This document shows positions 10,226 to 56,046 of a stretch of 64,000 bases of DNA, one piece after another. The notes beneath the pieces were generated by a model that made no database searches, was not told the DNA's origin, and saw nothing but the letters and a program-made list of their open reading frames with translations. Position numbers and translations under genes: made by a program. The stretch is from the NCBI RefSeq assembly GCF_000384215.1, contig NZ_KB913032.1:9571605-9635604 (forward strand), in the 5' to 3' direction. The first letter of the stretch is position 1. The number at the start of each line of letters is the position of its first letter. Source of the DNA: Amycolatopsis alba DSM 44262 (lineage in GTDB: Bacteria > Actinomycetota > Actinomycetes > Mycobacteriales > Pseudonocardiaceae).

Positions 10226-10278
10226 GTCGCGAAAGCCACTTTCGCGACACCTGATGTCCCGAAAGTGGCTTTCGCGAC
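10226..10278. repeat. 53-bp double-stem element, copy A
   Basis: Architecture: 23-base arm, 7-base spacer, 23-base arm. Each arm is a 9-base stem around a 5-base loop, GCCAC in the left arm and GTGGC in the right, and the two arms are also inverted copies of each other. It can fold as two small hairpins or as one long hairpin. With flanks the long stem covers 10224-10280. It lies between convergent genes. Confidence 0.85.
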
Positions 10279-10343
10279 ACTGCCCGGCCTCACTGGACGC
10301 GGGGTCAGCCGGGCAGGGCCGTGAACGAGCCAGAGCGCACGGG

Positions 10344-10398
10344 TGTCCTGAAGGCCCCCTTTGAGAAGTTCAACGCCTCAAAGGGGGCCTTCAGGACA
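10344..10398 (-). terminator. Long hairpin terminator downstream of the YcaQ-like gene
   Basis: Perfect inverted repeat with 22-base arms (10344-10365 and 10377-10398) and an 11-base loop, 34 bases beyond the stop of the minus-strand gene. It contains the TGAAGGCC core seen in other hairpins here and may stop transcription from both sides. Confidence 0.8.
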
Positions 10399-10431
10399 CC
10401 GCGACAACCGCCCTAGCCACTCACGAGGCCT

Positions 10432-11652
10432 CTAGCGCACGAGGCGCGAGAGGACGGGGGCGAGATCGCCCCGCTTCCCCACCGCGACCCCGTCCAGCCC
10501 CTGCCACTCGGCCATCAGCCGCAGCTCGCCCGCCAGCTCGCTCGCGACCCGCGCGACGTCCACCCCTGGCTCGGCGAAGGCGCCCTGGACGCGAAGCACC
10601 CCGGCGGCACGATCGCATTTGAGGTCGACGCGGCCGACGAGTTCGCCGTCCAGCAGGAACGGGAACACGTAATAGCCGTAGATCCGCTTCGGCTCGGGTA
10701 CGTAGATCTCGATGCGGTAGAAGAAGTCGAAGATGCGCTCGGTCCGCGCGCGTTCCCAGATCAGCGGGTCGAACGGCGACAGCAGCGCGCGGCCGGTGAC
10801 CGCGCGAGGCGCCTTCGCCGCGACGTGCCGGTACGCCGGGGCGGGCCAGCCGTCCACGGTCACCGGTTCCAGCACACCCGCGTCGACCAGTTCGGCCACG
10901 GCCCGCTTGCTGACGTCGGGGCCGAGCCGGTAGTAGTCCCGCAGGTCCGGTTCGGTGCCGATGCCCAGCGCGACGGCCGCGCGGGTGATCAGTTCGCGGG
11001 CGCCTTCCTCCGGGCTCACCCTCAGCGACAGGATCTCCGGCGGCACGACACGTTCTGTCAGGTCGTACAGCCGCTGGAACGACCGGCGCGTGCCGGTGGT
11101 CAGCTGCCCCATGCCGAACAGCCACTCGCAGGCCTTCTTGACCTCCGAACGCTCCCACCATGAGCCGGGCTTGTAGCCGCCCGAATCGCTTTCCAGCGCG
11201 CGCTCGATGTCGCCCGCGCCGATCGGTCCCTGTTCCTTGACCACGGCGAGAATGTCGTCCACCAGCTGGGGCGTCTGCTCCAGCACGCGGGCGTAGTTCG
11301 TCCACCAGCCCATGCGTTTCGCCCCGGACCGCAGCAACGGCCAGTCCGCCACCGGCAGCAGGCTCGCCTCGTGCGCCCAGGACTCGACCAGCATCCGGGG
11401 TTTGCGCGCGGAATGGGACCAGGCCGCGTCGTCCACCAGCGCGGGCTCGTACGCGCCGAGCCGGGAGAAGATCGGCATGTAGTGCGCGCGGACCGCGACG
11501 TTCACCGAATCCAGTTGCAGCAACTGGGTTCGCGACAGCACGCGCTGCAGATGCCGTCTCGTCACCGCCCCGCTTGGACGTGCTTCGGCGAATCCCTGCG
11601 CGGCCAGGGCGATCCGGCGCGCGGCCGGTCCGCTGATGGTCGAAGTGCTCAT
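10432..11652 (-). CDS. YcaQ-family winged-helix protein
   Basis: 406 residues of the HTH_42/YcaQ family. The E. coli relative YcaQ and the Streptomyces relative AlkX are DNA glycosylases for interstrand crosslinks. The N-terminal QLDSVNV motif, holding the QxD catalytic residues of the family, is present near residue 48. Also visible are a winged-helix block and the C-terminal block LLSPFDPLIWERARTERIF typical of the family. Start at ATG 11652 (MSTSTISGP); the frame is open 22 codons further but without support. A crosslink-repair role is inferred from the family. Confidence 0.85.
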   Translation of the reverse strand: MSTSTISGPAARRIALAAQGFAEARPSGAVTRRHLQRVLSRTQLLQLDSVNVAVRAHYMPIFSRLGAYEPALVDDAAWSHSARKPRMLVESWAHEASLLPVADWPLLRSGAKRMGWWTNYARVLEQTPQLVDDILAVVKEQGPIGAGDIERALESDSGGYKPGSWWERSEVKKACEWLFGMGQLTTGTRRSFQRLYDLTERVVPPEILSLRVSPEEGARELITRAAVALGIGTEPDLRDYYRLGPDVSKRAVAELVDAGVLEPVTVDGWPAPAYRHVAAKAPRAVTGRALLSPFDPLIWERARTERIFDFFYRIEIYVPEPKRIYGYYVFPFLLDGELVGRVDLKCDRAAGVLRVQGAFAEPGVDVARVASELAGELRLMAEWQGLDGVAVGKRGDLAPVLSRLVR

Positions 11653-11763
11653 CGTCGGAATGGTGCCATCCGCCACCGACAGTTTTCGGCGGCAGGCTAA
11701 CTCCACCTTCCTCCCCACCCCACCCTCAACGGATTGAGCTTCGCTCCGCTGTAGGTTTCCAGC

Positions 11764-12324
11764 ATGGCCGCCGCCGAAGTCCGCCCCGCAGTCGTGTCCG
11801 ACGCCCCCGAGATCGCCCGCATCCAGCGCGATACCTGGCGAAGCGCGTACACGGAATTGCTCGGCGAAGCGGCCGTCGCCGGACTGGACCTCGCGGAGCT
11901 CGAAGAGACCTGGGCCGAGACGATCGCGTACGCGGGCACGCGCGTCTTCCTCGCCACCGAAGGAGAGTTCACCGTCGGTTTCTGCGTCGTCGGCCGGGCT
12001 CCGGAGAGCGAAGTGGCCACCGCCGACGGAGCGCTGCCCGACGACGCTTCGACGACGGCGCTCATCGCCTCACTGCTGGTCGAGCCGCGCTGGGGACGGC
12101 GCGGGCACGCGGGACGGCTGCTGGCGAACGCGTCCGCCTGGCTGCGCGAAGACGGCGCCACCCGCGGGATCAGCTGGGTCGCCCAGACCGATCACGCGTC
12201 ATTGGGCTTCTTCCGCCGCGCGGGCTGGTCCCCCGACGGGACCGTCCGCATCCTCGACACCGGAAGCACGAACGTGCGCGAAGTCCGGCTCACCGGCGGC
12301 CTCGACTTCGAGCTCACTCCCTGA
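11764..12324 (+). CDS. GNAT-family N-acetyltransferase
   Basis: 186 residues with the GNAT fold. The acetyl-CoA binding motif appears as SLLVEPRWGRRGHAGRLL near residue 103, followed by the late strand/helix (ASLGFFRRAGW) typical of the family. The substrate is unknown. The 3' end overlaps the GtrA-like gene on the other strand by 126 bases. Confidence 0.85.
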   Translation: MAAAEVRPAVVSDAPEIARIQRDTWRSAYTELLGEAAVAGLDLAELEETWAETIAYAGTRVFLATEGEFTVGFCVVGRAPESEVATADGALPDDASTTALIASLLVEPRWGRRGHAGRLLANASAWLREDGATRGISWVAQTDHASLGFFRRAGWSPDGTVRILDTGSTNVREVRLTGGLDFELTP

Positions 12325-12798
12325 CTTCGCGAACACGACCCACCGCATCACCGAGTACATGAAGACGCCTTCGCACGCCCCGGCGATGAGCCTGGACAGG
12401 CGGTAGTCGACGCCCAGCGCGGCCAGTCCCGCGCCGACGCCGAGCAAGAACGCCAGATAGTTGATGACGATCGCGACGACGTACAGCACCGCCTGCCTGC
12501 CCACGGGCGCGTGCGAGCGGAAGTTCATGCTGCGGTTGAGCACGAAGCTCAGCCCGAACGCCACCCCGTACGCGAGCGTGATCGCCAGCCACACCGGCAG
12601 CCCGAGCCAGCCGCGAAGCAGGGTCAGCAGAAGCAGGTCGACCCCGAAGGTGAACCCGTTGATGAGCGCGAAACCGAGGAAACTCGGCGCCACCAGCCGG
12701 GCAAGCCCGAAAGGAAGGCGCCGGACCACGGCCGCGCAGAAGTCGGCGAAGCGATCCGCGAAACCTTTGCCGCGGACCGCGTCGTGCACGTCGGCCAC
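12199..12798 (-). CDS. GtrA-like membrane protein
   Basis: 199 residues with four hydrophobic segments (about 38-62, 66-90, 100-125, 132-155) and the conserved N-R-x-x-F stretch (SFVLNRSMNFRSH) of the GtrA family, which helps move polyprenyl-linked sugars across the membrane. The start is GTG at 12798 without a strong ribosome binding site. The normal family end is near residue 157 (MRWVVFAKSG). The last 40 or so residues are encoded antisense to the GNAT gene and look like read-through. Confidence 0.75.
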   Translation of the reverse strand: MADVHDAVRGKGFADRFADFCAAVVRRLPFGLARLVAPSFLGFALINGFTFGVDLLLLTLLRGWLGLPVWLAITLAYGVAFGLSFVLNRSMNFRSHAPVGRQAVLYVVAIVINYLAFLLGVGAGLAALGVDYRLSRLIAGACEGVFMYSVMRWVVFAKSGSELEVEAAGEPDFAHVRASGVEDADGPVGGPARAAEEAQ

Positions 12799-12947
12799 CC
12801 GTTCAGGATGGCAGCGGCAGGTGGCCGCGAGCCGACGTACAGGTGATCTTCTGGTGCGCGCCCGAGGCCGGTAACGGGGGCTGGCCCCAGTGCGACCCGT
12901 ATTTCAGCTGATAACTTGGAGAGAACGAAGATAACGGGGAGGCAACG

Positions 12948-13469
12948 ATGGTGGGCTGGTTGCTCCTGTCGTTCGGCGTCGCCTTCGGTTCGGCGATCCT
13001 GCCCGTGGTCAGTGTCGAGATGTTCCTCATCGGTCTGTGCGCCAGCCAGCCGACGATGCCGTGGCTGCTGCTCGGCGCCATCGTCGCGGCCGGTCAGGTC
13101 GGCGGGAAGACGCTCTACTACCTCGCCGCGAAGGGCACGATAAAGCTGCCGAAACCTCTGCACGATCGCCTGCACCGGGAGCGGCCGCCCACCCCGCGCC
13201 GGGAACGGTGGCGGGCGCGCACCAAGAAGATGCGCGCCCGGCTCGACGCCCTCCGTGAACGCTGCCACCGGCATCCGCACTGGATGGCGGGCACGTACGG
13301 GGTGAGTTCGATTCTCGGGCTGCCGCCGTACATGGCCACGAGCGTGCTGGCGGGACTGGTGAAGATGCCGCTGGCGAGCTTCCTGGCCACCGGTTTCCTC
13401 GGCCGCTGGCTGCGGTTCAGCCTGCTGGCCGCGTCACCTGCCCTGTTCGCCGGCTGGTTCCACTACTGA
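12948..13469 (+). CDS. VTT/YqaA-like small membrane protein
   Basis: 173 residues. Hydrophobic segments at about 2-30, 38-62 and 120-170 flank a very basic cytoplasmic stretch (about 68-108). The N-terminal half (FGSAILPVVSVEMFLIGL) and the later GLPPYMATSVLAGLVKMP block resemble the SNARE-associated/VTT (DedA, YqaA) superfamily of membrane proteins linked to lipid transport. A strong GGGGAGG precedes the ATG. The family call is tentative. Confidence 0.65.
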   Translation: MVGWLLLSFGVAFGSAILPVVSVEMFLIGLCASQPTMPWLLLGAIVAAGQVGGKTLYYLAAKGTIKLPKPLHDRLHRERPPTPRRERWRARTKKMRARLDALRERCHRHPHWMAGTYGVSSILGLPPYMATSVLAGLVKMPLASFLATGFLGRWLRFSLLAASPALFAGWFHY

Positions 13470-13494
13470 GCTGAAGGGGACAGCGTCCTTCAGC

Positions 13495-13498
<4 letters not shown>
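13466..13498. terminator. Bidirectional hairpin containing both stop codons
   Basis: Perfect 12-base arms (13466-13477 and 13487-13498) with a 9-base loop. The left arm contains the TGA of the VTT-like gene and the right arm contains the TGA of the convergent TPR gene, so one hairpin serves both. Confidence 0.75.
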
Positions 13499-16045
<2,547 letters not shown>

Positions 16046-16067
16046 CGGATCCCTTACTCACATGTCA

Positions 16068-16112
16068 TGAAAGGGCCGTTCAGGACAGCCAGTGCCCCGA
16101 ACGACCCTTTCA
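16068..16112 (-). terminator. Hairpin between pnp and pepR
   Basis: 14-base arms (16068-16081 and 16099-16112) with one G-U type exchange and a 17-base loop, 31 bases after the pnp stop. It could attenuate or process the pnp-pepR transcript. Confidence 0.55.
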
Positions 16113-16142
16113 CGGCGTTTCACATCGGTTAAGCAGGACTGC

Positions 16143-18398
16143 TTACGCGTCGGCCTTCGGAGCGTCGGCCTTGTCAGCCTCGGCCTCGGCGGGCTTCTCG
16201 GCGGCGTCCTCTTCCTTGACCACGATCAGGCTGATCTTGCCGCGGTTGTCGATGTCGGCGATCTCGACGCGGAGCTTGTCGCCCACGTTGACCACGTCCT
16301 CGACCTTGGCGATCCGCTTGCCGTTGCCCAGCTTCGAGATGTGCACCAGGCCGTCCTTGCCCGGCAGCAGCGAGACGAACGCGCCGAACGCGGCCGTCTT
16401 CACCACGGTGCCGAGGAAGCGCTCGCCGACCTTGGGCAGCTGCGGGTTGGCGATGGCGTTGATCTTGTCGATCGCCGCCTCCGCCGACGGGCCGTCGGCC
16501 GCACCAACGTAGATCGTGCCGTCGTCCTCGATGGAGATGTCGGCGCCGGTCTCCTCGGTGATCGAGTTGATCATCTTGCCCTTCGGGCCGATGACCTCGC
16601 CGATCTTGTCCACCGGGATCTTCACGCTGGTGACGCGCGGGGCGTACGGGCTCATCTCGTCCGGGCCGTCGATCGCCTCGGCGATGACCTCCAGGATGGT
16701 GAGGCGAGCGTCCTTCGCCTGCTTCAGCGCGGCCGCGAGGACCTCCGACGGGATGCCGTCGAGCTTCGTGTCGAGCTGCAGCGCGGTGATGATGTCCTTG
16801 GTGCCGGCGACCTTGAAGTCCATGTCGCCCATGGCGTCCTCGGCACCGAGGATGTCGGTCAGCGCGACGTAGCGGGTCTCACCGTCGACCTCGTCGGAGA
16901 TGAGGCCCATGGCGATGCCGGCGACCGGCGCCTTCAGCGGGACACCCGCGTTCAGCAGGCCCATGGTCGACGCGCAGACCGAGCCCATCGAGGTGGAGCC
17001 GTTGGAGCCCAGCGCCTCGGAGACCTGGCGGATCGCGTACGGGAACTCGTCCCGCTTCGGCAGGACCGGGACCAGGGCGCGCTCGGCGAGCATGCCGTGG
17101 CCGATCTCGCGCCGCTTCGGCGAACCGACGCGGCCGGTCTCGCCGGTGGAGAACGGCGGGAAGTTGTAGTGGTGCAGGTACCGCTTCGTGGTCTCCGGGG
17201 AGAGCGAGTCGATCTGCTGCTCCATGCGGAGCATGTTCAGCGTGGTGACGCCCAGGATCTGGGTCTCACCGCGCTCGAACAGCGCGGAACCGTGCGCCCG
17301 CGGGATCACGGCGACCTCGGCGGCGAGCGACCGGATGTCGGTCAGGCCGCGGCCGTCCATGCGGATCTTGTCCGTGAGGACGCGCTTGCGCATGATCTTC
17401 TTCGACAGGGCCTTGAACGCCGCGCCGATTTCCTTCTCGCGGCCCTGGAAGGCTTCGCCCTCGCCCAGGCCGACCTTCTCCAGCACCGCGGCCTTGACCT
17501 GGTCGGTCGCGTTGTCACGGTCCTGCTTGCCCGCGATGGTCAGGGCGTTCGCGAGGTCGTCGGTCGCGATGGCGGCGACGGCGTCGAACGCGTCCTGCTC
17601 GTAGGCCAGGAAGACCGGGAACTCGCCGGTCGGCTTGGCGGCGAGCTCGGCCAGCTGCTGCTGGGCCTCGCACAGGACCTTGATGAACGGCTTCGCGGCC
17701 TCGAGGCCCTCGGCAACGGCGATCTCGTCCGGCGCCTTGCCACCGTCGGCGATCAGGTCGAGCGTGCGCTCGGTGCCCTCGGCCTCGACCATCATGATCG
17801 CGACGTCGTCACCGACGATACGGCCGGCGACCACCATGTTGAAGGTGGCGTCTTCCAGCTGCTTCCAGGTCGGGAACGCGACCCACTGGCCCTCGATCAG
17901 CGCGACGCGGACGCCGCCGACCGGGCCCGAGAACGGCAGGCCGGCGATCTGGGTCGAGGCCGAGGCCGCGTTGATCGCGAGCACGTCGTACGGGTCGTCC
18001 GGGTTGAGGCTCTGGACGGTGATGACGACCTGGATCTCGTTGCGGAGACCGTCGGCGAACGACGGGCGCAGCGGCCGGTCGATCAGGCGGCAGGTCAGGA
18101 TCGCGTCGGTCGACGGGCGACCTTCGCGACGGAAGAACGCGCCGGGGATGCGTCCGGCGGCGTACATCCGCTCCTCGACGTCCACGGTCAGCGGGAAGAA
18201 GTCGAAGTGGTCCTTCGGGTGCTTCGACGCGGTGGTCGCCGAGAGCAGCATGGTCTCTTCGTCGAGGTACGCGACGACGGCGCCGGCGGCCTGACGGGCC
18301 AGGCGGCCGGTCTCGAAGCGGACGGTGCGGGTGCCGAAACGGCCGTTGTCGATCACGGCTTCGGTTTCGTGCACGGTGACTCCGGTGGAGTCGGTCAT
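16143..18398 (-). CDS. pnp: Polyribonucleotide nucleotidyltransferase
   Basis: Phosphorolytic 3'-5' exoribonuclease that also synthesizes RNA tails (GpsI in actinobacteria). 751 residues: two RNase PH domains separated by an alpha-helical domain, then a KH domain ([18 protein letters not shown]) and an S1 domain ([19 protein letters not shown]). The acidic Lys/Ala/Glu tail is typical. The start is ATG at 18398 with AGAGGAG at the right distance; the frame is open 16 codons further without a signal. Together with RNase J, two core RNA-decay enzymes lie in this window. Confidence 0.97.
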
Positions 18399-18585
18399 AG
18401 GGTGTATCTCCTCTTTTGATCCTCTGTAACGGCGCGAGTCTCCCACCCTGGGACCTGTTTCGCCTGCGGACGCTCGAGGAGTGAGGCCGGTCTTCGATCG
18501 AAGCTCACGGGCCGTTGCCCGTGAACCACTACCGAGGACCGGCGGACGGTTCCTCGTGCGCGCTCGCGCCGCGTGTTTTCTTAAG

Positions 18586-18622
18586 CCGAGGGGGAGCGGC
18601 CGGTGTGGTCACTCCCCCTCGG
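18586..18622 (-). terminator. rpsO-pnp intergenic hairpin
   Basis: Perfect 11-base arms (18586-18596 and 18612-18622) with a 15-base loop, directly after the rpsO stop. No U tract follows. In other bacteria the rpsO-pnp gap carries terminator and RNase processing hairpins, so either role is possible. Confidence 0.6.
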
Positions 18623-18629
18623 GTTCAAG

Positions 18630-28248: not shown

Positions 28249-28332
28249 CGCGTGACTGGACGGACGGCACGTGTGATCAGATGGACGACACACGTGACGG
28301 GGTGGACGACACACACGTGCCGGGGTCCGCCA
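28249..28332 (+). repeat. 21-bp tandem repeat cluster, four units
   Basis: Four consecutive 21-base units at 28249-28269, 28270-28290, 28291-28311 and 28312-28332. Units 1-3 share a (C)GTG start and a GGACG(A/G)(C)A end. They are the same family as the clusters near 10 kb and 41.8 kb. They fill the gap between the methyltransferase gene and the ABC transporter promoter. Confidence 0.8.
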
Positions 28333-31227: not shown

Positions 31228-31280
31228 GTCGCGAAAGCCACTTTCGCGACGTCTGATGTCCCGAAAGTGGCTTTCGCGAC
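31228..31280. repeat. 53-bp double-stem element, copy B
   Basis: Same 23-7-23 layout and loops (GCCAC, GTGGC) as copy A and identical in both arms; only the first two bases of the spacer differ (GTCTGAT here, ACCTGAT in copy A). It lies between convergent genes, 58 bases after the substrate-binding protein stop. Confidence 0.85.
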
Positions 31281-41786: not shown

Positions 41787-41962
41787 CGCGTGATCGGGCC
41801 CGAGACTCGCGTGATCAGAAGCGGAACTCACGTGCTTGGACGGACGACACGCGTGATGGGACGGACGACACTGGTGTCCGGATGGACGACTCGCCGCGGG
41901 ACGCCGGGTGCGCACGTGTCGTCCGTCCTGTCACGTGTGTCGTCCGCCTGCGCACACGTGCC
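41787..41962. repeat. 21-bp tandem repeats: five direct units followed by inverted units
   Basis: Five exact 21-base steps from 41787 to 41891 (units at 41787, 41808, 41829, 41850, 41871), most starting CGCGTGA or CACGTG and ending GGACGAC(A/T). After a short gap, 41913-41962 carries similar units on the opposite strand (rich in ACGTGT and TCGTCC). No unique spacers separate units, so this is a satellite-like tandem repeat and not a CRISPR array. Confidence 0.8.
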
Positions 41963-41972: not shown

Positions 41973-42025
41973 GTCGCGAAAGCCACATTCGGGACGCCCG
42001 ATGTCCCGAAAGTGGCTTTCGCGAC
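41973..42025. repeat. 53-bp double-stem element, copy C
   Basis: Same 23-7-23 layout with loops GCCAC and GTGGC. The left arm has an A in place of the first T after the loop and a GGGAC end; the long outer stem (flanks included, 41971-42027) has only one internal mismatch. It lies 69 bases past the stop of the PH-domain gene and 11 bases from the 21-bp repeats. Confidence 0.85.
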
Positions 42026-42093: not shown

Positions 42094-43599
42094 TCAGGCC
42101 CGTTCAAGGAAAGGTGTCAGCAGGTCCGGCACGGACTCCTCCGCGAACAGCAGGCCCTGCTCCTCCCCCGCGTCGTACACCGAGTACGCCCCGGTCCCGG
42201 CCGCCGTGGTCGCCACGACGGTCAGCAAACCCTTGCGCCGCTGGAAGATCGACTGCTTGACCGTCCAGCCGATCACCCCGTCGCGCTCCAGGGCGAACGT
42301 GCTCCGCCGCACGGTCCCGTGCCGCCCGACCAGGTACCGCCCGGTGATCCCGTGCCCGAGGTTGCGGTAGGCGTCCAGCGCCAGCAGTACCGAAACCGGC
42401 AGCAGGACGACCCCGAGCGCGGCGCCGATCACCAGCAGGACGCCGGTCAGCAGGAAGCCGAGGATCGCGAAGATCGCCAGCAGGACCACCACCGAACCGA
42501 TCCACCAGCGCAGCAGCCGTCCCCGCGCGGCGCGCGGATGTCCGGCGAGCCGGACGGCCTCGGTCGGCGAAACCGGCTCGCGCAGGACCGCCGCGGCGAT
42601 CCGGTTGGCCGTCGCGACCGGCGCGGCGGGCAGGAGCGTGTGGTAGTCGGTCTTGTCCTGGTCGTCGTTCTGCCGTGTGCCGGTGGCGATCGCGTCGACG
42701 CGGGCCGCGCCGGAGATCCGGTTCCCGAGCGGCTCGACGAGGTCGACCCCGCGCAGGCGGGCTTCCTCGATCGAGATCGAGCGCGTGGTGAACAGCCCGC
42801 GACGCACTCGCAGCGTGCCGCCCGCTTCGCGGTCGAGCCGGTAGTTCCACCACATCTCGACCCACAGGCCCAGCGCGCCGACCACCCCGACGACCATCGC
42901 GATCGCCAGCAGGATCAGGATCGCCACCACCAGCGGGATGCCGCGGAACAGGCCGATCACCCAGTCGATCAGGCCCTTCTGCAGCCCCGCCCATTCGGAG
43001 ACCTGCATGAGCCCGCCGCCCGCCGCGAGGCCGAGCGCCGGGGAGAGGAACGACATCGGCGCGTAGCGGATCCAGCTCCGGTCCAGCTCGGCGAGCGGCG
43101 CGTCCTCGTCGGTCTCCGCGATTTCCGCGCGGCGCAACAGGTCCGCGCGCAGCCGCTCGGCCTCGGCGCGAGAGACCGGGTTGAGCTTGATCCGGCCCTG
43201 TCCACCCGGTTCCTGCGATCCGGTGCCGATGGTCACCACGGCGACACCGAACAGCCGGTGCAGCGGGTTCGCGGTCAGGTCGACGTTGCGGATCCGTTCG
43301 CGCTGCAGGGATTTCCGCGAGCGGAAGACCAGGGTGAACGCCGTCTCCAGCCGGTCCGGCGTGACCCGGTACCGCACCCCCTTCCAGTAGAACAGCTCCG
43401 CCAGCACACCACCGCCGACGAGGACCACCCCGCCTGCCACGACCCAGGCGAGCGCGACCCAGAGCCGCCCTCCGCCGCCCACGATCGCGGCCGTGATCGG
43501 GATCGCGGCACCGACGGCCGCACCTGTCATGGTCAGCGCGGTGACCGGGAGCGTCCGCTTGTCGAGCGTGCTCCAGCCTTCGAACTCACCCGAGGTCAT
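42094..43599 (-). CDS. PH-domain membrane protein (YdbT-like)
   Basis: 501 residues with six hydrophobic segments in three pairs and three bacterial PH_2 (YdbS/YdbT) modules. One repeated signature is VRYRVTPDRLETAFTLVFR; another is LRVRRGLFTTRSISIEEAR. The family is widespread in actinobacteria; Bacillus relatives protect against certain lantibiotics and membrane stress. The ATG overlaps the preceding gene stop (ATGA, 43596-43599). Confidence 0.88.
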   Translation of the reverse strand: MTSGEFEGWSTLDKRTLPVTALTMTGAAVGAAIPITAAIVGGGGRLWVALAWVVAGGVVLVGGGVLAELFYWKGVRYRVTPDRLETAFTLVFRSRKSLQRERIRNVDLTANPLHRLFGVAVVTIGTGSQEPGGQGRIKLNPVSRAEAERLRADLLRRAEIAETDEDAPLAELDRSWIRYAPMSFLSPALGLAAGGGLMQVSEWAGLQKGLIDWVIGLFRGIPLVVAILILLAIAMVVGVVGALGLWVEMWWNYRLDREAGGTLRVRRGLFTTRSISIEEARLRGVDLVEPLGNRISGAARVDAIATGTRQNDDQDKTDYHTLLPAAPVATANRIAAAVLREPVSPTEAVRLAGHPRAARGRLLRWWIGSVVVLLAIFAILGFLLTGVLLVIGAALGVVLLPVSVLLALDAYRNLGHGITGRYLVGRHGTVRRSTFALERDGVIGWTVKQSIFQRRKGLLTVVATTAAGTGAYSVYDAGEEQGLLFAEESVPDLLTPFLERA

Positions 43600-48867: not shown

Positions 48868-48924
48868 GCTGCCTCTCCAAGGGCGCCCTGCGCCCGACGG
48901 AGGCTTACCGTCGCGCGCCAGGCC

Positions 48925-49000
48925 ACGGAAACGTTTTGCAGGGCGCCTCAAGCGGTGACGCGAGTTGCTTGCCCGCCGGCGCCCTGCGACACGTTTCCGT
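48925..49000. terminator. Hairpin between the response regulator and HxlR genes
   Basis: Inverted repeat with 23-base arms (48925-48947 and 48978-49000), two mismatches and a 30-base loop. It starts 58 bases after the response regulator stop, and its right arm lies inside the HxlR coding end. A partial third copy of the GGCGCCCTGC core is at 48883. Likely bidirectional termination. Confidence 0.6.
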
Positions 49001-49367: not shown

Positions 49368-49378
49368 GTGACCTCCTC

Positions 49379-49395
49379 ACTCTCTCCGGGAGAGT
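49379..49395 (-). promoter_or_regulatory. Small inverted repeat upstream of the HxlR gene
   Basis: ACTCTC/GAGAGT with a 5-base centre, 11 bases before the GTG start and next to the ribosome binding site. It is placed for autoregulation or for a leader hairpin. Weak evidence by itself. Confidence 0.35.
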
Positions 49396-49402
49396 AACAT
49401 GC

Positions 49403-50026
49403 CTAGCGAGAGGGAGCGGGCTGCATCAGTGCCTCGAACAGCAGGATCAGGTGACGGCGGCCGCGCTCCCAGCGCGCCTCCAGTTCGGTCTGGTCGCGGG
49501 TCGCCCAGCTGGCGATGAGGATGCCGCGGACGACGTCCATCGCCGTGTACACCGCGTGCAGGAACTCCGGATGCGCCGCATGGTCCGGGAGCAGCGCCTT
49601 GCCGAACTCGACCAGGCTGCTCGTCGCGATCGGCTCGACCACCGCCATCTGGGCGCGCAGTTCCGCGTCGGTCCGCGAGGCCACCCACAGCTCCACGGTC
49701 GCCGAGAAGACCGGGCCCTGGTGCATCTCCCACAGCAGCTGCAACGCGTCCCCGACCGGGTCGGCCGACGCCTTGAGCCGGTCGATCTCGGCCATCGCGA
49801 CCTCGGTGCGCTTGGCCGCGAGATGCCGGATCGCGGAGGTGACGAGGTCGGTCTTCGTCGGGAAATGGTGCACCTGGGCGCCGCGGGTCACCCCGGCGCG
49901 ATCCGCGACGCGAGTGGTCGTGGTGCCCGCGTAGCCGTACTCGACGAGACAGTCGATCGTGGCGTCGAGCAGCCTGACGCGCATCGCCGCGCTGCGTTCC
50001 TCCTGCGTGCGTCGTGGGGCTGCCAT
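49403..50026 (-). CDS. TetR-family regulator
   Basis: 207 residues. N-terminal helix-turn-helix (TTTRVADRAGVTRGAQVHHF, near residue 37-56) and a helical ligand domain. It follows the SRPBCC gene by 9 bases on the same strand, so it probably controls that operon. Ligand unknown. Confidence 0.9.
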   Translation of the reverse strand: MAAPRRTQEERSAAMRVRLLDATIDCLVEYGYAGTTTTRVADRAGVTRGAQVHHFPTKTDLVTSAIRHLAAKRTEVAMAEIDRLKASADPVGDALQLLWEMHQGPVFSATVELWVASRTDAELRAQMAVVEPIATSSLVEFGKALLPDHAAHPEFLHAVYTAMDVVRGILIASWATRDQTELEARWERGRRHLILLFEALMQPAPSR

Positions 50027-50035
50027 GCACCTACT

Positions 50036-50473
50036 TTATGGTGCGCCGCGCGAGGCCCGCGTTGTGAGGCCGTCGACCATGCGCGCGAAGAAGTGCCCGA
50101 GGAACCGGCGGTAGAGCGCTCCGGTGCCGGGGATCTTGGGGACGAACGACGCGTGCCAGTGGATGTCGGTGCCGCCGAGCGCGGGCATGAGGTCGACGTA
50201 CGCGCGGTAGTCACGCAGTGGCATCCCCTTGCGCAGCGTGTACCCGAAGCGTTTGCCGGGTTCGAGCAAGATGACCTCTTCGCAGGCGTTGACGCCGTTA
50301 GTGCTGAAGACGCCGATGGCGCCGAGGCCGTTCTGATCGCCCTTCTCCAGGAGGCGGAACCTGCCCAGCGGGGACCAGTCGGGCCAGCGCTCGCGGTCCA
50401 CGAGGAGGGCGTAGACGGCTTCGGGACTCGCGCTGGTGTGGCCGTTCGCGGAAATGCGCTGGATCTTCCCCAT
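50036..50473 (-). CDS. SRPBCC (START-like) family protein
   Basis: 145 residues forming a Bet v1/START-like hydrophobic pocket: SPEAVYALLVDRERWPDWSP at the N-terminus and ALYRRFLGHFFARMVDGLT in the last helix. Members are polyketide cyclases, lipid carriers or stress proteins. AGAAGGAGAAC gives a clear ATG at 50473. In an operon with TetR. Confidence 0.85.
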   Translation of the reverse strand: MGKIQRISANGHTSASPEAVYALLVDRERWPDWSPLGRFRLLEKGDQNGLGAIGVFSTNGVNACEEVILLEPGKRFGYTLRKGMPLRDYRAYVDLMPALGGTDIHWHASFVPKIPGTGALYRRFLGHFFARMVDGLTTRASRGAP

Positions 50474-50519
50474 ACGTTCTCCTTCTTCCTCGGTCCGAGA
50501 GGGCAACTCCAGGCAGTAA

Positions 50520-50572
50520 GTCCCGAGCGCCACGTTCGAGACGATGAGCGTCCCAAGCGTGGCGCTCGGGAC
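50520..50572. repeat. 53-bp double-stem element, copy E (divergent)
   Basis: Exactly 53 bases with the 23-7-23 layout and the same GCCAC and GTGGC loops, but stems changed to GTCCCGAGC and GCTCGGGAC. The outer pair still matches perfectly, so the changes are compensated. It lies 44 bases after the CocE-like gene stop. Confidence 0.75.
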
Positions 50573-50615
50573 ACACTCACTGGGGTTCGTGGCGCGAACC
50601 ATCGCGTTCAGAGGA

Positions 50616-52403
50616 TTAAGTGCGGGAGACGACCGGGACCGAGAGCGAAGTGCCGTTCAGGTCGAAGGTCACCCGCGCACCGGGCGCGGGCAGCGCCGGG
50701 TCGAACATGTCCGCGTCGGTCCCGCCCAGGACGAGCGCCAGCCGGTGCCCCGCCGGGACGACGTGATCGAGGCTGCTCAACCGGAACGTCATCGTGTACG
50801 CCTTGCCGGGCACCAGCGGCTCGCCCCGCCACAGCGACCGGTGATGACCGAGATCCGCCCAGCCGGTCGCCACGATCTGCTTGTCCACGCTGGTCAGATC
50901 CGCGACGGTGTCGAGGAAGCAGCCGGTGTCCGCCGCGGTTCCCGCGCCCCAGCAGGAACGGCTCGTCAGGTCCTTGGTGCCCAGCGCGGGGAAGTGCGTG
51001 TTCCGCACGGTCGCGGGACCGTAGTCGACCAGCACCGCCCCGAGCCGCGCGCTCGGCTTGTCGGAACGGGCGGTCACCGTCACCGTGGCGGTCCCGGCGA
51101 TCCGGGTGTCCGAGCGCACGGGCTCACCTGCGAAGACGAGACGCTCCGGACTGGCCTGCGACGGGTTCTCCACCCACTGCGACGCACCTCGCGCCGGGTC
51201 GTCGGTCAGTGAAGCGGCACCAGCGGCGGGACGGTTCCCCAGCCCGCCGTCCGGGGAGGGCCACAAGGTGCGCGACTGCCCGGCAGGTGGCCACCGGCGT
51301 TCGTCGGTCCACCGGTCCGGGGTGTGCTCGATCCGGATCGCGGGTTCGGTCTCGACGCCGTTGCGGACGCCGAGCAGCCACCGGTCGAACCACCGGTGCA
51401 GGGTCTTCACGAACAGCGACCGGTCGAGGTCGAACGGGTCGACGTGCGCCGCCTGGTGCAGCCACGCCTTGCGCGGCACGCCGTACGCGTTCAGCGCCTC
51501 CCACCAGGGCCCGAACTGGATCGGGTTCACGTTGAGATCGTGGAAACCCATCGACGCGAAAACGCTTGCGTGCACCCTCCCGGTCTTCGCGACGTAGTCG
51601 AGCCCGCGCCAGTAGCCGTTGAAGTTCCCGTCCGTGCCCGCGCGCCGCGCGTTGTCGTCCTCGAACGGCTGGCACAGCTTCTGCGCCCGCTCGTTGTACA
51701 GACCCGGACCGCCCGCCCAGCCGAAGTACGCCCCGTCCGCGTTGTGGACCTCGTAGTACGAACTGACCCCCGCGATCGGCACGATCGTCTTGAGCCCGTC
51801 GATCCCGGACGCAGCCATCCCGATCGCCGTCGCCCCGTCCTGCGACTTCCCGATCGCCCCGACCGACCCGTTCGCCCAGCCCGCCCGGATCCGCTCCGGC
51901 CCGGACGGCGTCCGGAACGCGCTCGCGCGGCCGTTGAGCCAGTTCACGACGGCATTGCCGGAGGCGACGTCGTCGAAACACCCGGACGAGCGGTTGGTGC
52001 CCCCGATGTCGACCAGCACGACCGCGTACCCGCGCGGGACGAAGTAGTTGTCGTAGAACAGCGGGAACTGCGACGGCGTGCCGTCGGGGAGGTAGGTCTT
52101 CGGCTGGCGCTCGTTGCCGCGCCCGATCTTCTCGAAGTACGGGCTGACGTCCATGATCACCGGAACACCGGCGACCGGTTCCGACGGCCGGACGATGTCG
52201 GCGGCGACCCTGTCGACCTGGCCGTCGCGGTCGAGGTCCTGGCCGGTTTCCACCCAGGCGGTCTCCCGGATGGCCTTCTCGTAGGAGAACACCGGCGCGC
52301 TGACGCCGTCCCGCAGGACGAACGCGGGTGGTGACGCGATGGCAGGCGCGGCGGTGAGCAGCAGTGTCGCCACCACGGTGGCGGTCAAGATCTTCAGCCC
52401 CAT
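50616..52403 (-). CDS. Secreted CocE/NonD-type (S15-like) hydrolase
   Basis: 595 residues with a signal peptide (about 1-24, ending AIASPPAF). The alpha/beta-hydrolase core has the nucleophile in GKSQDG near residue 187 and the CDD region RRAGTDGNFNGYWRG. A C-terminal jelly-roll (X-Pro dipeptidyl-peptidase C-terminal type) ends VPVVSRT. Family members are X-Pro peptidases, cocaine esterase or acylases. The start is ATG 52403; the frame is open far upstream but that part is antisense to other genes. Confidence 0.88.
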   Translation of the reverse strand: MGLKILTATVVATLLLTAAPAIASPPAFVLRDGVSAPVFSYEKAIRETAWVETGQDLDRDGQVDRVAADIVRPSEPVAGVPVIMDVSPYFEKIGRGNERQPKTYLPDGTPSQFPLFYDNYFVPRGYAVVLVDIGGTNRSSGCFDDVASGNAVVNWLNGRASAFRTPSGPERIRAGWANGSVGAIGKSQDGATAIGMAASGIDGLKTIVPIAGVSSYYEVHNADGAYFGWAGGPGLYNERAQKLCQPFEDDNARRAGTDGNFNGYWRGLDYVAKTGRVHASVFASMGFHDLNVNPIQFGPWWEALNAYGVPRKAWLHQAAHVDPFDLDRSLFVKTLHRWFDRWLLGVRNGVETEPAIRIEHTPDRWTDERRWPPAGQSRTLWPSPDGGLGNRPAAGAASLTDDPARGASQWVENPSQASPERLVFAGEPVRSDTRIAGTATVTVTARSDKPSARLGAVLVDYGPATVRNTHFPALGTKDLTSRSCWGAGTAADTGCFLDTVADLTSVDKQIVATGWADLGHHRSLWRGEPLVPGKAYTMTFRLSSLDHVVPAGHRLALVLGGTDADMFDPALPAPGARVTFDLNGTSLSVPVVSRT

Positions 52404-52476
52404 CGTCCGAGTATCGCTTACAAAACCCGAACATTTCCCCCACATTCCCCGCATCTGCCCGCGCGAGGCTCTTCGC

Positions 52477-52848
52477 ATGCTGAAACACACCATCGCCGTC
52501 TGCCTCACCGCGGCCGGCCTCGTTGCCCTCGCCCCCGCTGCTTCGGCCCAGACTGCGCCCATCACGCTCAGCCCTGAGGAGTCGCAGCAGCTGTGCGCCG
52601 AATGGCTGCCCAAGCTCACCGAGCGCACCACGAAGCTCACGGACCGCATCAACGGCGGCCCCGAGATCCGCGGTTCCGTCGCTAACCTCAAAGCCAGGGC
52701 CGAGGACCAGCGCAAGAAGAACCACGCCGACACCGCCGACAGGCTCCAGAAGCGCGCCGACAAGCGCAGTGGACGGCTTCCCGAGCTCGCCGCGGCGAAG
52801 AAGAAGCTCGACGACTTCGCGGGCGCGCACTGCAAGGCGGGCAAGTGA
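52477..52848 (+). CDS. Small secreted helical protein
   Basis: 123 residues: signal peptide (about 1-24, cleavage after ASA), then a Lys/Arg/Glu-rich helical domain with two cysteines (QLCAEW and AHCKAG) likely forming a disulfide between the ends. It is similar in style to small actinobacterial hemophore-like or coiled-coil proteins, but no family can be named. The stop overlaps the next gene start (GTGA at 52845-52848). Confidence 0.75.
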   Translation: MLKHTIAVCLTAAGLVALAPAASAQTAPITLSPEESQQLCAEWLPKLTERTTKLTDRINGGPEIRGSVANLKARAEDQRKKNHADTADRLQKRADKRSGRLPELAAAKKKLDDFAGAHCKAGK

Positions 52849-53021
52849 AACGTCTCCTGACCGCGAGCCTCGCCGCGCTCGCGCTGTTCACCACGGCCGC
52901 GTGCACCGACGAGAAGCCGGCGTCGAGCCCGGCGCCCGGTTCGACGCCTGGCGAACTGAGCGACGTCCAGCGCACCCTCGACTCGATCGAGCAGGACATG
53001 GCAGGCGACCCGGCCCCGTGA
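52845..53021 (+). CDS. 58-residue lipoprotein
   Basis: GTG start overlapping the preceding stop. Signal peptide MKRLLTASLAALALF-like (first residue by GTG) with lipobox TTAAC (Cys near 20), followed by a Pro/Ser linker and one amphipathic helix (LSDVQRTLDSIEQDM). The clear lipobox and the coupling support a real gene. Function unknown; it ends 12 bases before the two-component regulator. Confidence 0.75.
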   Translation: MKRLLTASLAALALFTTAACTDEKPASSPAPGSTPGELSDVQRTLDSIEQDMAGDPAP

Positions 53022-53033
53022 CAGGATCTGCCG

Positions 53034-53723
53034 GTGACGACACAACCGGGACGCGGGCTGGTACTGGTCGTCGAGGACGACCCCGCGATCGCCGAACTCG
53101 CCTCGCTGTATCTGAAGCGGGACGGGTTCGGCGTCCAGGTCGAGGCGGACGGCGGCGCCGCGCTGGCCACGATCCGGCGGCTGCGCCCGGTCGCGATCGT
53201 CCTCGACATCGGACTGTCCGGAATGGACGGTATCGAGATCTGCCGGACGCTGCGCGCGACCGGCGACTGGACGCCGGTGCTGTTCGTGACCGCCCGCGAC
53301 GACGAACTGGACCGCTTGCTGGGCCTGGAGATCGGCGCGGACGACTATCTGACGAAACCGTTCAGCCCGCGTGAGCTCTCGGCCAGGGTCCGGACCGTCC
53401 TGCGCCGCGCCGCCGGAGCGGCACCGCCCGCCGAGACGTACACGGCGGGCGGTGTCCGCGTCGACGTCACCCAGCGCCGGGTCTGGGCCGCCGACACCGA
53501 GGTCCCGCTGACCTCGACCGAGTTCGACCTGCTCACCCACCTGGTGAAACGGCCGGGCCAGGTGTTCAGCCGCGAACAGCTGCTCAGTTCCGTCTGGGGT
53601 TACGCGGCTTCGGCGGGCACACGGACCGTCGACGTCCACATCGCCCAGCTGCGGGGGAAACTGGGCGGCCACAGTCCGATCAGGACGGTCCGCGGCATCG
53701 GCTACGCGGCGGACGCCGGATGA
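53034..53723 (+). CDS. OmpR/PhoB-family response regulator
   Basis: 229 residues: receiver domain (VVEDDPAIAEL; phosphoacceptor in IVLDIGLSGMDG near residue 61; K in LTKPF) and a C-terminal winged helix (LTSTEFDLLTHLVKRPGQVF, then WGYAASAGTRTVDVHIAQLR). The stop overlaps the kinase start as ATGA (53720-53723). Confidence 0.95.
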   Translation: MTTQPGRGLVLVVEDDPAIAELASLYLKRDGFGVQVEADGGAALATIRRLRPVAIVLDIGLSGMDGIEICRTLRATGDWTPVLFVTARDDELDRLLGLEIGADDYLTKPFSPRELSARVRTVLRRAAGAAPPAETYTAGGVRVDVTQRRVWAADTEVPLTSTEFDLLTHLVKRPGQVFSREQLLSSVWGYAASAGTRTVDVHIAQLRGKLGGHSPIRTVRGIGYAADAG

Positions 53724-55069
53724 GGCGCACGTCGCTCGCGCTGCGGATCACCGTGGTGTGCCTGGCGATCGCCGCGGTCGCGGTGGTGGTCGCCGGGCTG
53801 GTCGCGGCCCGGCTGATCCGCACCACCGGCACCGATGTGCTCCGGCAGTCACTCGCGGCGCAGGCGGACGTGGTCGCGAGCCAGCTCGACGAGACCGGGA
53901 TCGGCAACCGGCTCGGTGTCGGCAAGGTCGCGGAAGTCGTGCGCGGGCAAGGGATCGACGTCGTCGTCCGCCGTCCGAACGGGACGCTCGACGGGGCCGG
54001 GACGGTGGCGGCGATCGCCGCGGGCAAGACGGGGTTCACGCGCTCGGGCACGGTGCTCGTCGAAGGCCAGCAATACCTCGTCGAGGCCCGCGCTGTCGGC
54101 GGGAAAGGCGCCGCGTTCGCGCTCGTGCAATCGACGAAGACCGGTGAGGCGCGCGGACGGATGCTGGTGCGCAACACCGTCCTCGCCCTCGGCGCGGGAC
54201 TCGCGGTCGCCGCGATCGCCGGGCTGGTGCTCAGCCGGATGTTGTCCCGGCCGCTGCGCCGGGCCGCGTCGGTGGCGAACGGGATGCGGTCCGGGCGCCG
54301 TGACCTGCGGGTTCCCGTGGAAGGACCGTCCGAGGTCGCGGACGTGGCGAAGTCGGTCAACGAACTCGCCGACGCGCTCCAGTACAGCGAGGCGCGGCAA
54401 CGCGAGTTCCTGCTTTCGGTGTCGCACGAACTGCGGACGCCGCTGACCGCGGTCACCGGATTCGCCGAGGCGATCGGTGACGGCGTGGCCGAGGGCGAGG
54501 ACGCGCGCCGGGCCGGGCAGACCATCCACCGCGAGGCTGTCCGGCTGGAACGCCTGGTCAGCGACCTGCTGGAACTGGCGAGGCTCGGCGCCGACGAGTT
54601 CCGCCTCGACCCCGCGCGCCTGGACCTCGCCGCGCTCGTCGACGAATGCGCCGACGTCTGGCGGCTGCGCTGCGCTCAGCAGAACGTCACGCTGCTGGTC
54701 GAGCGGCCTGCCGGCGAGGTCCCGGTCATCGCCGATCCGCGGCGGCTCCGCCAGGTGGTCGACGGGCTGGCCGAGAACGCGCTGCGCGTGACACCGGCGG
54801 GCGCGCCGATCGTGTTCTCCCTGGTGGCGGCCGACGGGCAGGCGCGGCTGGCGGTGCGGGACGGCGGGCCCGGCCTGGCGCCGGAGGACTACCCGGTCGC
54901 GTTCGAACGCGGCGTGCTGAACAAGCGGTACCGCGACCGCCGTCCGGTCGGTTCGGGGATCGGGCTCGCGCTGGCCAACGGCCTGGTCACCCGCATGGGC
55001 GGGACGCTGACCGCCGGTCCGGCGCCGGAAGGCGGAGCGGCGTTCACCGTCGCATTCCGGTTAGGGTGA
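53720..55069 (+). CDS. Sensor histidine kinase with HAMP domain
   Basis: 449 residues: span 1 (about 9-32), an extracytoplasmic sensor of about 110 residues, span 2 (about 150-172), HAMP, then the HisKA helix (REFLLSVSHELRTPLTAVTG, His near 235) and ATPase domain (ENALRVTPAG; GSGIGLALANGLV). The regulator upstream is the partner. Followed 4 bases later by a LysR gene. Confidence 0.94.
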   Translation: MRRTSLALRITVVCLAIAAVAVVVAGLVAARLIRTTGTDVLRQSLAAQADVVASQLDETGIGNRLGVGKVAEVVRGQGIDVVVRRPNGTLDGAGTVAAIAAGKTGFTRSGTVLVEGQQYLVEARAVGGKGAAFALVQSTKTGEARGRMLVRNTVLALGAGLAVAAIAGLVLSRMLSRPLRRAASVANGMRSGRRDLRVPVEGPSEVADVAKSVNELADALQYSEARQREFLLSVSHELRTPLTAVTGFAEAIGDGVAEGEDARRAGQTIHREAVRLERLVSDLLELARLGADEFRLDPARLDLAALVDECADVWRLRCAQQNVTLLVERPAGEVPVIADPRRLRQVVDGLAENALRVTPAGAPIVFSLVAADGQARLAVRDGGPGLAPEDYPVAFERGVLNKRYRDRRPVGSGIGLALANGLVTRMGGTLTAGPAPEGGAAFTVAFRLG

Positions 55070-55073
55070 TCAC

Positions 55074-55982
55074 GTGGAGATGTTGCACCTGCGGTACTTC
55101 GTGGCCGTCGCCGAGGAACTGAACTTCTCCCAGGCGGCCAGGAAGCTGCACATGGCCGCCTCCCCGCTGAGCCAGCGGATCAAGGATCTCGAACACGAAC
55201 TCGGCCACAGGCTGTTCGACCGCAGCACGCACCATGTCACGCTCACGGCGGCGGGTTCCGCGCTGCTGCCGATCGCGCGGGACGTCCTCGACCAGGTCAA
55301 CGCGATTCCCTGGCGCTTGCAGGAAGCGGTGAAACCGCGGCGGAGCACCGTGTTCGTCGGTATGCCGGCCGGGGTGCACCCGGCCCTGCGGGAACGCGTC
55401 AAACGGCTCGAAGAACGCTGTCACGACCGGTTCGAGCTCAAACGCTGGCCGGGGACGACGCCGGATCTCCTCGCCGCGGTCCACGAGGGAAAGCTGGCGC
55501 TGTCACTGGTCCGGATGCCGGTCACCGATCCGGCGCTGGAGATCATTCCGGTGCAGGTCGAACGGCTCGGCGCCGTCGTCCCGGCCGACCGGTTCACCGG
55601 ACGGGAAACCGTCGACATCGCCGAATTGAGTGATCTGTCCTACATCCCGTCCGCCTCGGAGAGCATTCCGGCCTATTCGGACGACATGGACCGGAAATTG
55701 TCGAACGCGGGCATCAAGAAAAGACTCAAAGTCGGCGGAACCGAGTATTCGGGCATTTCCGAACTGGTGGCGAACGGGTCGTCGTTCTCGATCACCATGC
55801 TCGATCCGGCCAGCCCGATGCATCTGTTCCTTGTCGACGGCGCCACCATCCTGCCGTTCGCCGATTTCCGGCCCCAGCTGGAGACCGCGCTCGTCTGGCG
55901 ACGTGACCGCGCGGAAGACGGCGACCTGGCCGAGCTGGTCGCCGGGGTCCGCGAGATCTTCGCCGAGCCGCTTTCGACGTAG
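55074..55982 (+). CDS. LysR-family regulator
   Basis: 302 residues. N-terminal winged helix (LRYFVAVAEELNFSQAARKL, then ASPLSQRIKDLEHELG) and a periplasmic-binding-like effector domain. It starts 4 bases after the kinase stop, so it could share that operon, and it lies directly upstream of the acyl-CoA operon, which has a large inverted repeat at its promoter. It is the natural candidate to control that operon. Confidence 0.92.
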   Translation: MEMLHLRYFVAVAEELNFSQAARKLHMAASPLSQRIKDLEHELGHRLFDRSTHHVTLTAAGSALLPIARDVLDQVNAIPWRLQEAVKPRRSTVFVGMPAGVHPALRERVKRLEERCHDRFELKRWPGTTPDLLAAVHEGKLALSLVRMPVTDPALEIIPVQVERLGAVVPADRFTGRETVDIAELSDLSYIPSASESIPAYSDDMDRKLSNAGIKKRLKVGGTEYSGISELVANGSSFSITMLDPASPMHLFLVDGATILPFADFRPQLETALVWRRDRAEDGDLAELVAGVREIFAEPLST

Positions 55983-55993
55983 CGAGGGGCAAC

Positions 55994-56046
55994 GTTGCGA
56001 AAGCCACTTTCGCAACGTTGAAGGTTGCGAAAGTGGCTTTCGCAAC
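55994..56046. repeat. 53-bp double-stem element, copy D
   Basis: Same layout and loops as copies A-C, but every stem end reads GTTGCG/CGCAAC in place of GTCGCG/CGCGAC. All four positions changed together, so base pairing is kept. Both stems and the long outer stem are perfect. It starts 12 bases after the LysR stop. Confidence 0.85.

Follow-up and report, generated by a model that had tools for sequence, protein, structure and literature searches.

A possibly orphan REPIN-like repeat with two cores exactly 30 bp apart in Amycolatopsis

A 53-bp palindromic element is dispersed through a genome of Amycolatopsis, a genus of antibiotic producers. Five copies had been described at first, and a search by loops plus spacing found 256 copies in the 9.81-Mb genome; a lack of further copies, which would have refuted the first description, was therefore not seen. 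In each unit, a 23-bp quasi-palindromic arm is followed by a second, inverted one. Both have a core that is usually GAARG-NNN-CYTTC, and together they form one 53-bp palindrome, in which the pairing that is conserved is that of a single long hairpin. Distinct sequence families in several genera carry the same cores, and the rule covering this superfamily is two AARGNNNCYTT cores exactly 30 bp apart. We lean slightly towards reading the element as an orphan REPIN-like dispersed repeat that is kept up at the DNA level.

Results

A first-pass annotation of the window (the whole 64-kb stretch of DNA analysed) had reported five copies of exactly 53 bp with a 23-7-23 layout and the loops GCCAC and GTGGC, and all five were recovered in this form (Table 1). 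The pattern GCCAC-N25-GTGGC has 5 matches in the window against a shuffle mean of 0.11, and at least 5 matches were seen in 0 of 100 shuffles. Two further 53-bp members of the same geometry had been overlooked, given as the sixth and seventh members. It was correctly noted that all copies except A lie within about 70 bp of an upstream stop (copy A is 153 and 333 bp from its stops). The copies had also been placed entirely between genes, which holds for A, B, C and E; copy D is overlapped by a mechanical gene call at 50036-50602 (minus), the start of which, we think, is over-extended across the copy. The flanks of copy A are also present at four other sites of the genome, with 93-94% identity over 144-311 bp. 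An Rfam search of the window at the gathering score gave nothing at the copies, the sole match being Actino-pnp at 18486-18543.

Table 1. Members of the 53-bp element in the window, with subtype and gene context
Member	Position	Strand	Features
Copy A	10226..10278	.	GTC subtype; convergent neighbours 8984-9892 (+) and 10432-11718 (-)
Sixth member	10345..10397	.	23-7-23, cores 30 bp apart, loops GCCCC/GGGGC; 34 bp from stop of minus-strand gene at 10432
Copy B	31228..31280	.	GTC subtype; between convergent genes, stops 58 and 71 bp away
Copy C	41973..42025	.	GTC subtype, substitution in one core; 68 bp past stop of 42094-43599 (-)
Copy D	50520..50572	.	AGC subtype, deviates from AARG core; 43 bp past stop of 50616-52403 (-)
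Copy E	55994..56046	.	GTT subtype; long palindrome perfect 23/23; 11 bp past stop of 55074-55982 (+)
Seventh member	61028..61080	.	family TCCGTGAAGGCCTCC...; long palindrome perfect 23/23; convergent genes, stops 12 and 7 bp away

The first-pass annotation proposed compensated 9-bp stems in two small hairpins, which would exchange with one long hairpin. This part of the proposal was not confirmed. The two small stems match at 9 and 8 of 9 positions in copies A and B, at 7 and 8 in C and D, and at 9 and 9 in E, which leaves copy E alone with both small stems perfect. The long hairpin matches at 22 of 23 positions in A, B and C and at 20 in D. The pair GTCCCGAGC/GCTCGGGAC, offered as small-stem compensation in E, joins the outer ends of both arms, i.e., the long hairpin, and is found in the copy at 50520, with GTTGCG found in that at 55994; the letters D and E had been swapped. 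Among 104 distinct windows chosen without regard to pairing, the long hairpin fits better in 88, compared with 1 for the small stems. Across sequence families, small-stem pairing is 0.633 (0.450 in shuffles) and long pairing is far higher at 0.867-0.967, with the columns outside the cores covarying in the long form. Compensated changes are nearly absent within the GTC subtype, the largest with 47 distinct sequences (long 2, short 0). The predicted RNA folds into the long form every time, at -39.4 to -44.2 kcal/mol compared with -18.8 to -27.2 kcal/mol when the pair span is limited to 23 bases. On the long-form pairing, the folding energies and the lack of small-stem compensation in the GTC subtype, we rejected the two-hairpin form as the conserved structure.

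The elements are located at the 3' ends of genes: in the gene context of 95 copies, 54 are convergent, 36 tandem and 1 divergent. The median distance to the nearest or upstream stop is 57.5 bp in G000 and 59 bp at 80 other Amycolatopsis loci, and 6 of 9 sites in G041, measured from the 43-bp core pair, are within 14 bp of both convergent stops. Such placement would suit a lineage-specific bidirectional terminator without a U tract ('I-shaped') or a 3'-protecting hairpin, selected as RNA, in which length and pairing are kept, sequence drifts and the palindromes of the superfamily are interchangeable. The median stop distances are similar to the 66-76 nt given for Streptomyces transcript ends in PMC12207403, and the predicted energies also argue for this reading, as does the abundance of U-poor ends in Streptomyces clavuligerus, where they make up 353 of the 535 structured 3' ends (PMC8269248). 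The sequence after the hairpin points the other way. At least 4 T in 8 nt were found in just 1 of 190 flanks, and the first 10 nt hold 1.5-1.95 T, fewer than the 3-4 that PMC12207403 gives for Streptomyces terminators. Half-compensated stem pairs on the sense strand of 136 tandem elements comprise 35 G.U and 41 A.C, so an RNA-level preference for G.U was not seen in the stems; one clear convergent subset of several, with the spacer included, has 75 G.U and 51 A.C (p 0.04). As the elements have neither a U tract nor a sense-strand G.U preference in the stems, upkeep as DNA is favoured over upkeep as RNA. The first-pass annotation was right that this is a structured intergenic repeat of fixed length near gene ends; covariation alone is no proof of selection on RNA, since G.U is no commoner than A.C. 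Moreover, copy A has a further hairpin closer to each of its two flanking stops, and the 30-bp register of the cores is not required by RNA pairing alone. A link between orientation and transcription was also rejected, as the tandem contexts have 7 GTC copies in the same and 12 in the opposite direction, and 5 and 6 GTT copies. We consider the terminator or 3'-hairpin reading rather unlikely as the account of the family, and judge from the sequence that terminator activity of copies is possible.

The register of the cores is sharp. In 2.56 Mb, 329 core pairs (duplicates included; 196 distinct windows) are spaced by 30 bp, compared with 4 at 29 bp and 2 at 31 bp. The core-pair pattern has 523 matches in this genome. 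Within the family that includes Amycolatopsis it occurs in 48 of 130 genomes and 23 of 46 genera, and none of the 148 actinobacterial genomes sampled outside the family has a match. Single arms, loop-flipped copies and runs of three and ten cores were seen, and the multimers keep the same register. One may account for this by a chromosomal binding site, where a dimer on each 13-bp palindromic core would cooperate across 30 bp on the same helix face, either to organise the chromosome or to form a roadblock where genes converge, with hundreds of sites per genome retained for this use. The palindromic cores, the runs of up to 10 of them, their recurrence in separate sequence families of several genera and the strand symmetry of G.U and A.C would all agree with it. 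It explains neither the pairing of columns outside the cores nor the copy numbers, and we regard it as improbable: the strict family has 2-274 copies in each of the 18 nearest relatives (18/18) and is nearly missing from 61 congeners further away, and superfamily counts are only 0-6 in many congeners. Repeat content shifts fast between related species, and orthologous gaps in relatives hold other palindromes or none.

Signs of mobility were sought in several ways. The Y1 transposase family (RAYT, PF01797) was found in 0 of 80 Amycolatopsis congeners, and a RAYT-driven REP is thus rejected for the genus. Because other carriers of the superfamily do hold a Y1 match (2 of 21 and 6 of 20 genomes), Y1 may play a role there; no core pair lies near the Y1 matches in the loci of about 1.9-3.4 kb available for 12 of the 16 matches. 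No constant unpaired GTAG/GTGG tag was found at one end, where the flank composition conserves only R-Y per side, nor a constant CGTC tag: with both strands considered, 43 of the 95 copies carry CGTC at their inner foot, and the GTT consensus lacks it. None of the best 24 of 88 presence/absence alignments shows a clean single-copy insertion. The changes range from 54 to 291 bp, and of the two alignments closest to 53 bp, one shows the interior of a different palindrome and the other a replacement. The relatives, at 90-95% identity, are too distant for clean empty sites. Outside the doubles, 28 arm-like sites were found in 1.13 Mb, several being chance matches within genes, and no pair of single arms was seen to flank a gene, which also dismisses an autonomous element with the arms as its ends. 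A classical MITE, i.e., a DDE transposon reduced to its ends by internal deletion and moved with duplication of the target, would agree with an inverted-repeat unit in many copies and is highly improbable, given this lack of arm pairs, a 7-bp spacer too short for internal sequence, and flanking repeats at chance level (none of at least 3 bases; identical dinucleotides 16, 14.3 expected). No mobilising gene was found for the repeats.

Discussion

For the DNA-repeat reading, we counted the copy numbers, the 30-bp register, the long-form covariation, the 3'-end placement, the single arms, flips and multi-core runs, the differing orthologous gaps, the G.U-A.C strand symmetry and the precedent of template switching, which is known to create and repair inverted-repeat arms (PMC8794818). 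Against it we counted that there is no clean insertion or target duplication and no mobilising gene, and that Y1 is present in some carrier genomes. In the mechanism that we propose, a candidate DNA-binding or DNA-processing protein other than a Y1 transposase would recognise the paired cores and spread or copy the unit, and the 30-bp spacing, about three helical turns, would be its footprint. The pairing of the arms would mostly be renewed by template switching during replication within the palindrome, by which arms would be made alike and loops and spacers could flip. Copies would persist chiefly between gene ends, insertions in genes and promoters being lost, and some may secondarily serve as bidirectional terminators or 3' hairpins. 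More tentatively, and with less than even confidence, we suggest a REP-like, Y1-independent system, observed to date in the family of Amycolatopsis alone, in which a candidate protein would read a pair of GAARGNNNCYTTC cores separated by exactly 30 bp. From genus to genus the cores and register would stay the same and the remaining palindrome would drift through paired changes, so that many unlike families would be variants of a single ruler-like element.

The prevailing view is that REPIN populations need RAYT transposases, and here an abundant REPIN-like population occurs in a genus with no detected Y1 transposase. Two cores and 30 bp form a simple searchable rule, which unites unlike repeat families across genera and provides a probe for the responsible protein. 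Counting G.U against A.C on the sense strand offers a cheap general test of whether a pairing is maintained at the RNA or the DNA level. Should the copies turn out to end transcripts, each genome would hold several hundred bidirectional terminators.

Comparison with known systems

The first-pass annotation compared the element to paired REP/BIME elements and knew no name for it. The likeness holds in that short palindromes are paired in inverted orientation at a constant distance, in high copy and outside genes, and no name was found in the open-licence literature. There, the 13-mers GAAAGCCACTTTC and GAAAGTGGCTTTC and six strings from other repeat families had no match, and the papers matching one of two 11-mers are, by their titles, not about repeats. 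The same literature yielded no account of these palindromic repeats in Amycolatopsis or Pseudonocardia (the accessible text of PMC6749651 names A. mediterranei only in a satellite-count table) and no case of REP or REPIN/RAYT in actinobacteria.

REPINs are GTAG-tagged REP doublets with RAYT, for which alternative long and two-hairpin folds were proposed earlier (PMC3116915, PMC2817692 and PMC3733652). As described there, they share with our repeats the two short palindromes, inverted and at a set distance, that form one long hairpin, the hundreds of intergenic copies, the 3'-end placement, the compensatory changes, the single-arm remnants and the ordered clusters. Unlike them, the Amycolatopsis repeats are actinobacterial, have no GTAG foot and no Y1 transposase in the 80 congeners, are conserved in the middle of each arm, and are spaced by 30 bp from centre to centre compared with the 71 bp reported between the 16-mers of SBW25 GI REPINs. 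CGTC-tagged REPs are likewise inverted dimers of short palindromes, often with dissimilar partners and with no dedicated transposase known, and Actinobacteria are not among the phyla listed for them in PMC3733652. Unlike in those repeats, CGTC at the inner foot is confined to under half of our copies. The motifs of BIMEs are unrelated to those of the Amycolatopsis repeats. The BIMEs of enterobacteria resemble them as mosaics in which palindromic units are arrayed between the ends of genes (PMC2817692), but have variable linkers instead of a fixed 30-bp register. Finally, the U-poor 'I-shaped' terminators of GC-rich bacteria are also long stable hairpins past the stop codon with no U tract (PMC8269248 and PMC12207403), whereas the Amycolatopsis repeat, in which termination is putative, is an interspersed family with a fixed spacing of its cores.

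Pairing in the five window copies

The first-pass annotation had listed five elements in the window (A to E), each 53 bp long with the loops GCCAC and GTGGC, and direct sequence check bore out coordinates, length and loops for all five. The following table gives their positions and pairing together with those of the other elements in the window. The pattern GCCAC-N25-GTGGC occurs five times there, while the average in shuffles is 0.11 and none of the 100 shuffles reached five or more. The predicted RNA energy of the five copies is -39.4 to -44.2 kcal/mol unrestricted, and -18.8 to -27.2 kcal/mol when the pair span is restricted to at most 23 bases. Copy A is embedded in a longer block common to four other places.

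Coordinates of the five 53-bp copies and of other elements in the window, with the pairing in the small stems (inside each arm) and in the long hairpin (arm 1 versus reverse complement of arm 2)
Feature	Position	Small-stem matches of 9 (arm 1/arm 2)	Long-hairpin matches of 23	Remarks
Copy A	10226-10278	9/8	22	
Copy B	31228-31280	9/8	22	
Copy C	41973-42025	7/8	22	
Copy D	50520-50572	7/8	20	
Copy E	55994-56046	9/9	23	
Terminator-like hairpin	9914-9965			CGAGGGACCTTTGCTC...; directly past gene 8984-9892
Actino-pnp RNA (Rfam RF01688)	18486-18543			minus strand; 69.3 bits; sole gathering-score match in the window
Inverted match to GTGTCGTCCGTCC family	28265-28312			another lies close to copy A
Separate repeat family	41838-41928			GTGTCGTCCGTCC; three exact places across both strands; adjoins copy C
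Palindrome	56106-56139			GAATGGTATGACCACC..GGTCATACCATTCTTC; upstream of gene 56216-57370

The terminator-like hairpin is conserved in 10 of the 10 relatives compared, and the sequence farther out all changes. The palindrome beyond copy E looks like a putative operator.

Long hairpin and small stems

Among 102 distinct copies of the GCCAC/GTGGC family, a set pre-filtered on long pairing (15, 17 or 19 of 23), the long hairpin is better in 43, the small stems in 1, and 58 are tied. Compensated changes in the long versus the short pairing number 10 vs 3 in subtype GTT, 35 vs 21 in AGC-like copies and 2 vs 0 in GTC. A loop-blind scan returned 118 matches, 116 of them with a 7-base spacer, and the loops are complementary in 113 of these 116, GCCTC/GAGGC and GCCCC/GGGGC among them. 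In 104 distinct superfamily windows outside the family (two AARGNNNCYTT cores 30 bp apart, taken without selection for pairing outside the cores), long pairing is better in 88, short in 1, and 15 are equal. For 10 representatives (<36/53 identity), long pairing holds in 0.867 of cells in the outer columns, 0.933 in the inner and 0.967 in the core-NNN columns, against shuffle values of 0.547, 0.421 and 0.385; slid partners pair at 0.15-0.40. Small-stem pairing in these representatives is likewise above chance (0.633 vs 0.450 shuffled).

Copy number, range and the 30-bp core pair

With loops and spacing fixed, the A. alba genome (one contig, 9,811,274 bp) holds 153 GTC-kind and 103 GTT-kind copies, with 0 for the control pattern; a stricter pattern gives 230. 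This strict pattern is present in 47 of 390 family genomes and 4 of 46 genera, and in 23 of 62 genomes of genus g30. When relatives were ranked by similarity over one 1.6-kb segment, all 18 nearest (93-97%) were found to carry it, at 2 to 274 copies each, as do 3 of 61 more distant congeners (47, 40 and 1 copies in genomes G163, G154 and G112), the single G112 match being probably due to chance. One exact GTT sequence occurs at at least 80 loci, and every one among the matches listed comes from Amycolatopsis, in species such as A. roodepoortensis, A. keratiniphila, A. azurea and A. pittospori. In 15 loci examined from genome G309, core and geometry are as in the GCCAC/GTGGC family; spacers and outer arms are unlike it, the latter being GGCAG/CTGCC in most.

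A 656-kb scan gave 44 strong palindromes, of which 11 (12 at a lower threshold) belong to the family. AARGNNNCYTT is present in 30 of the 44, and the spacing is 30 bp in 27 of the 29 with two cores. Copy D, with the rest of the AGC subtype (10 of 95 copies), deviates from the AARG core. Over 2.56 Mb (A. alba, eleven relatives and 80 loci; duplicates included, choice partly guided by the GCCAC/GTGGC family), 329 core pairs are spaced at 30 bp, 4 at 29 bp and 2 at 31 bp; with the CCA/TGG family removed, the counts are 124, 4 and 1. Core runs at 30-bp steps comprise two cores in 315 cases and three in 7, and a ten-core array exists at one locus of genome G040 (L287 2516-2801, genus g6), nine at exact 30-bp steps and with alternating 7-bp spacers.

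The pattern GAARGNNNCYTT-N19-AARGNNNCYTTC has 523 matches in A. alba, 289-665 in 18 sisters and at least one in 71 of 80 congeners. Of the 130 family genomes searched 48 carry it, as do 23 of the 46 genera; none of the 148 other genomes in the phylum sample does. Genomes with only one or two matches may represent chance matches; G057 and G066 share a match at one common place. With the reversed control, nearly all genomes give 0; the exceptions are G327 with 5 and G004 and G005 with 1 each.

Placement relative to genes

From 1.13 Mb of A. alba, 95 copies were gathered (at least 15 of 23 long matches) and their contexts assigned with a simple purpose-made gene caller: 54 are convergent, 36 tandem and 1 divergent, 3 overlap a called gene and 1 is at a segment edge, compared with 24.5% convergent, 46.5% tandem and 29% divergent expected from intergenic room. 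Many segments were picked because they contained known copies, which biases the rates of gap occupancy and, to a lesser degree, the proportions of context types. The upstream stop is the nearer one for 26 of the 36 tandem copies. For the same family, 80 loci from other Amycolatopsis gave 53 convergent, 35 tandem, 3 divergent and 7 edge cases, and the regions of relatives 9, 14 and 2 in the first three contexts. The 15 G309 loci are 9 tandem, 4 convergent, 1 divergent and 1 inside a called gene. In genome G041, both convergent stops lie within 14 bp at 6 of 9 sites.

Insertion and upkeep

Orthologous gaps in relatives (90-95% identical) hold different palindromes or none. No clean single insertion was found in the best 24 of 88 presence/absence alignments, where size changes were 54-291 bp, and no target duplication at the A. 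alba copies. At the 95 copies, the 53-bp unit is followed outward on each side by a purine and then a pyrimidine (R 0.92, Y 0.98; n=190), with no covariation between the two sides and no conserved bases beyond. Within the first 2.98 Mb of A. alba, AGC copies and odd-loop clusters excluded, all 13 pairs of neighbours at most 400 bp apart combine a GTC with a GTT copy (e.g. 117147 and 117235), which was equalled by 1 of 20,000 label shuffles. In genome G090, two copies of the same type lie 50 bp from each other.

Under RNA-level selection G.U is expected to prevail among half-compensated stem pairs on the sense strand. In 136 tandem elements these pairs are 35 G.U vs 41 A.C. One subset among several (83 clear convergent elements, spacer counted) gave 75 vs 51 (p 0.04), and the stems alone in these elements 35 vs 32. 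The flanks lack a T tract, 4 or more T in 8 bases being present in 1 of 190. The A. alba cluster at 1184336-1184607 contains several arms, including doubles with GCCAC as both loops (one loop flipped). The strand symmetry is consistent with a DNA-level process, as are the loop flips, the single arms and the runs of three cores. Inverted-repeat arms are reported to be created and mended by template switching (PMC8794818; see also PMC8604942).

Comparison with REPINs

REPINs are REP doublets moved by RAYT, a Y1 transposase. A Y1 transposase was detected in none of the 80 congeners, and in two sets of other superfamily carriers in 2 of 21 and 6 of 20 genomes; no core pair lies near the Y1 matches in the 12 loci examined (of 16 matches). 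The Amycolatopsis repeat works like a REPIN, and on the marks tested it is not a member of that class. REP dimers with unlike partners were already reported, as was placement at 3' ends (PMC3733652), and REPINs as described in PMC3116915 have the same anatomy as the Amycolatopsis repeat and also the same idea of two alternative folds.
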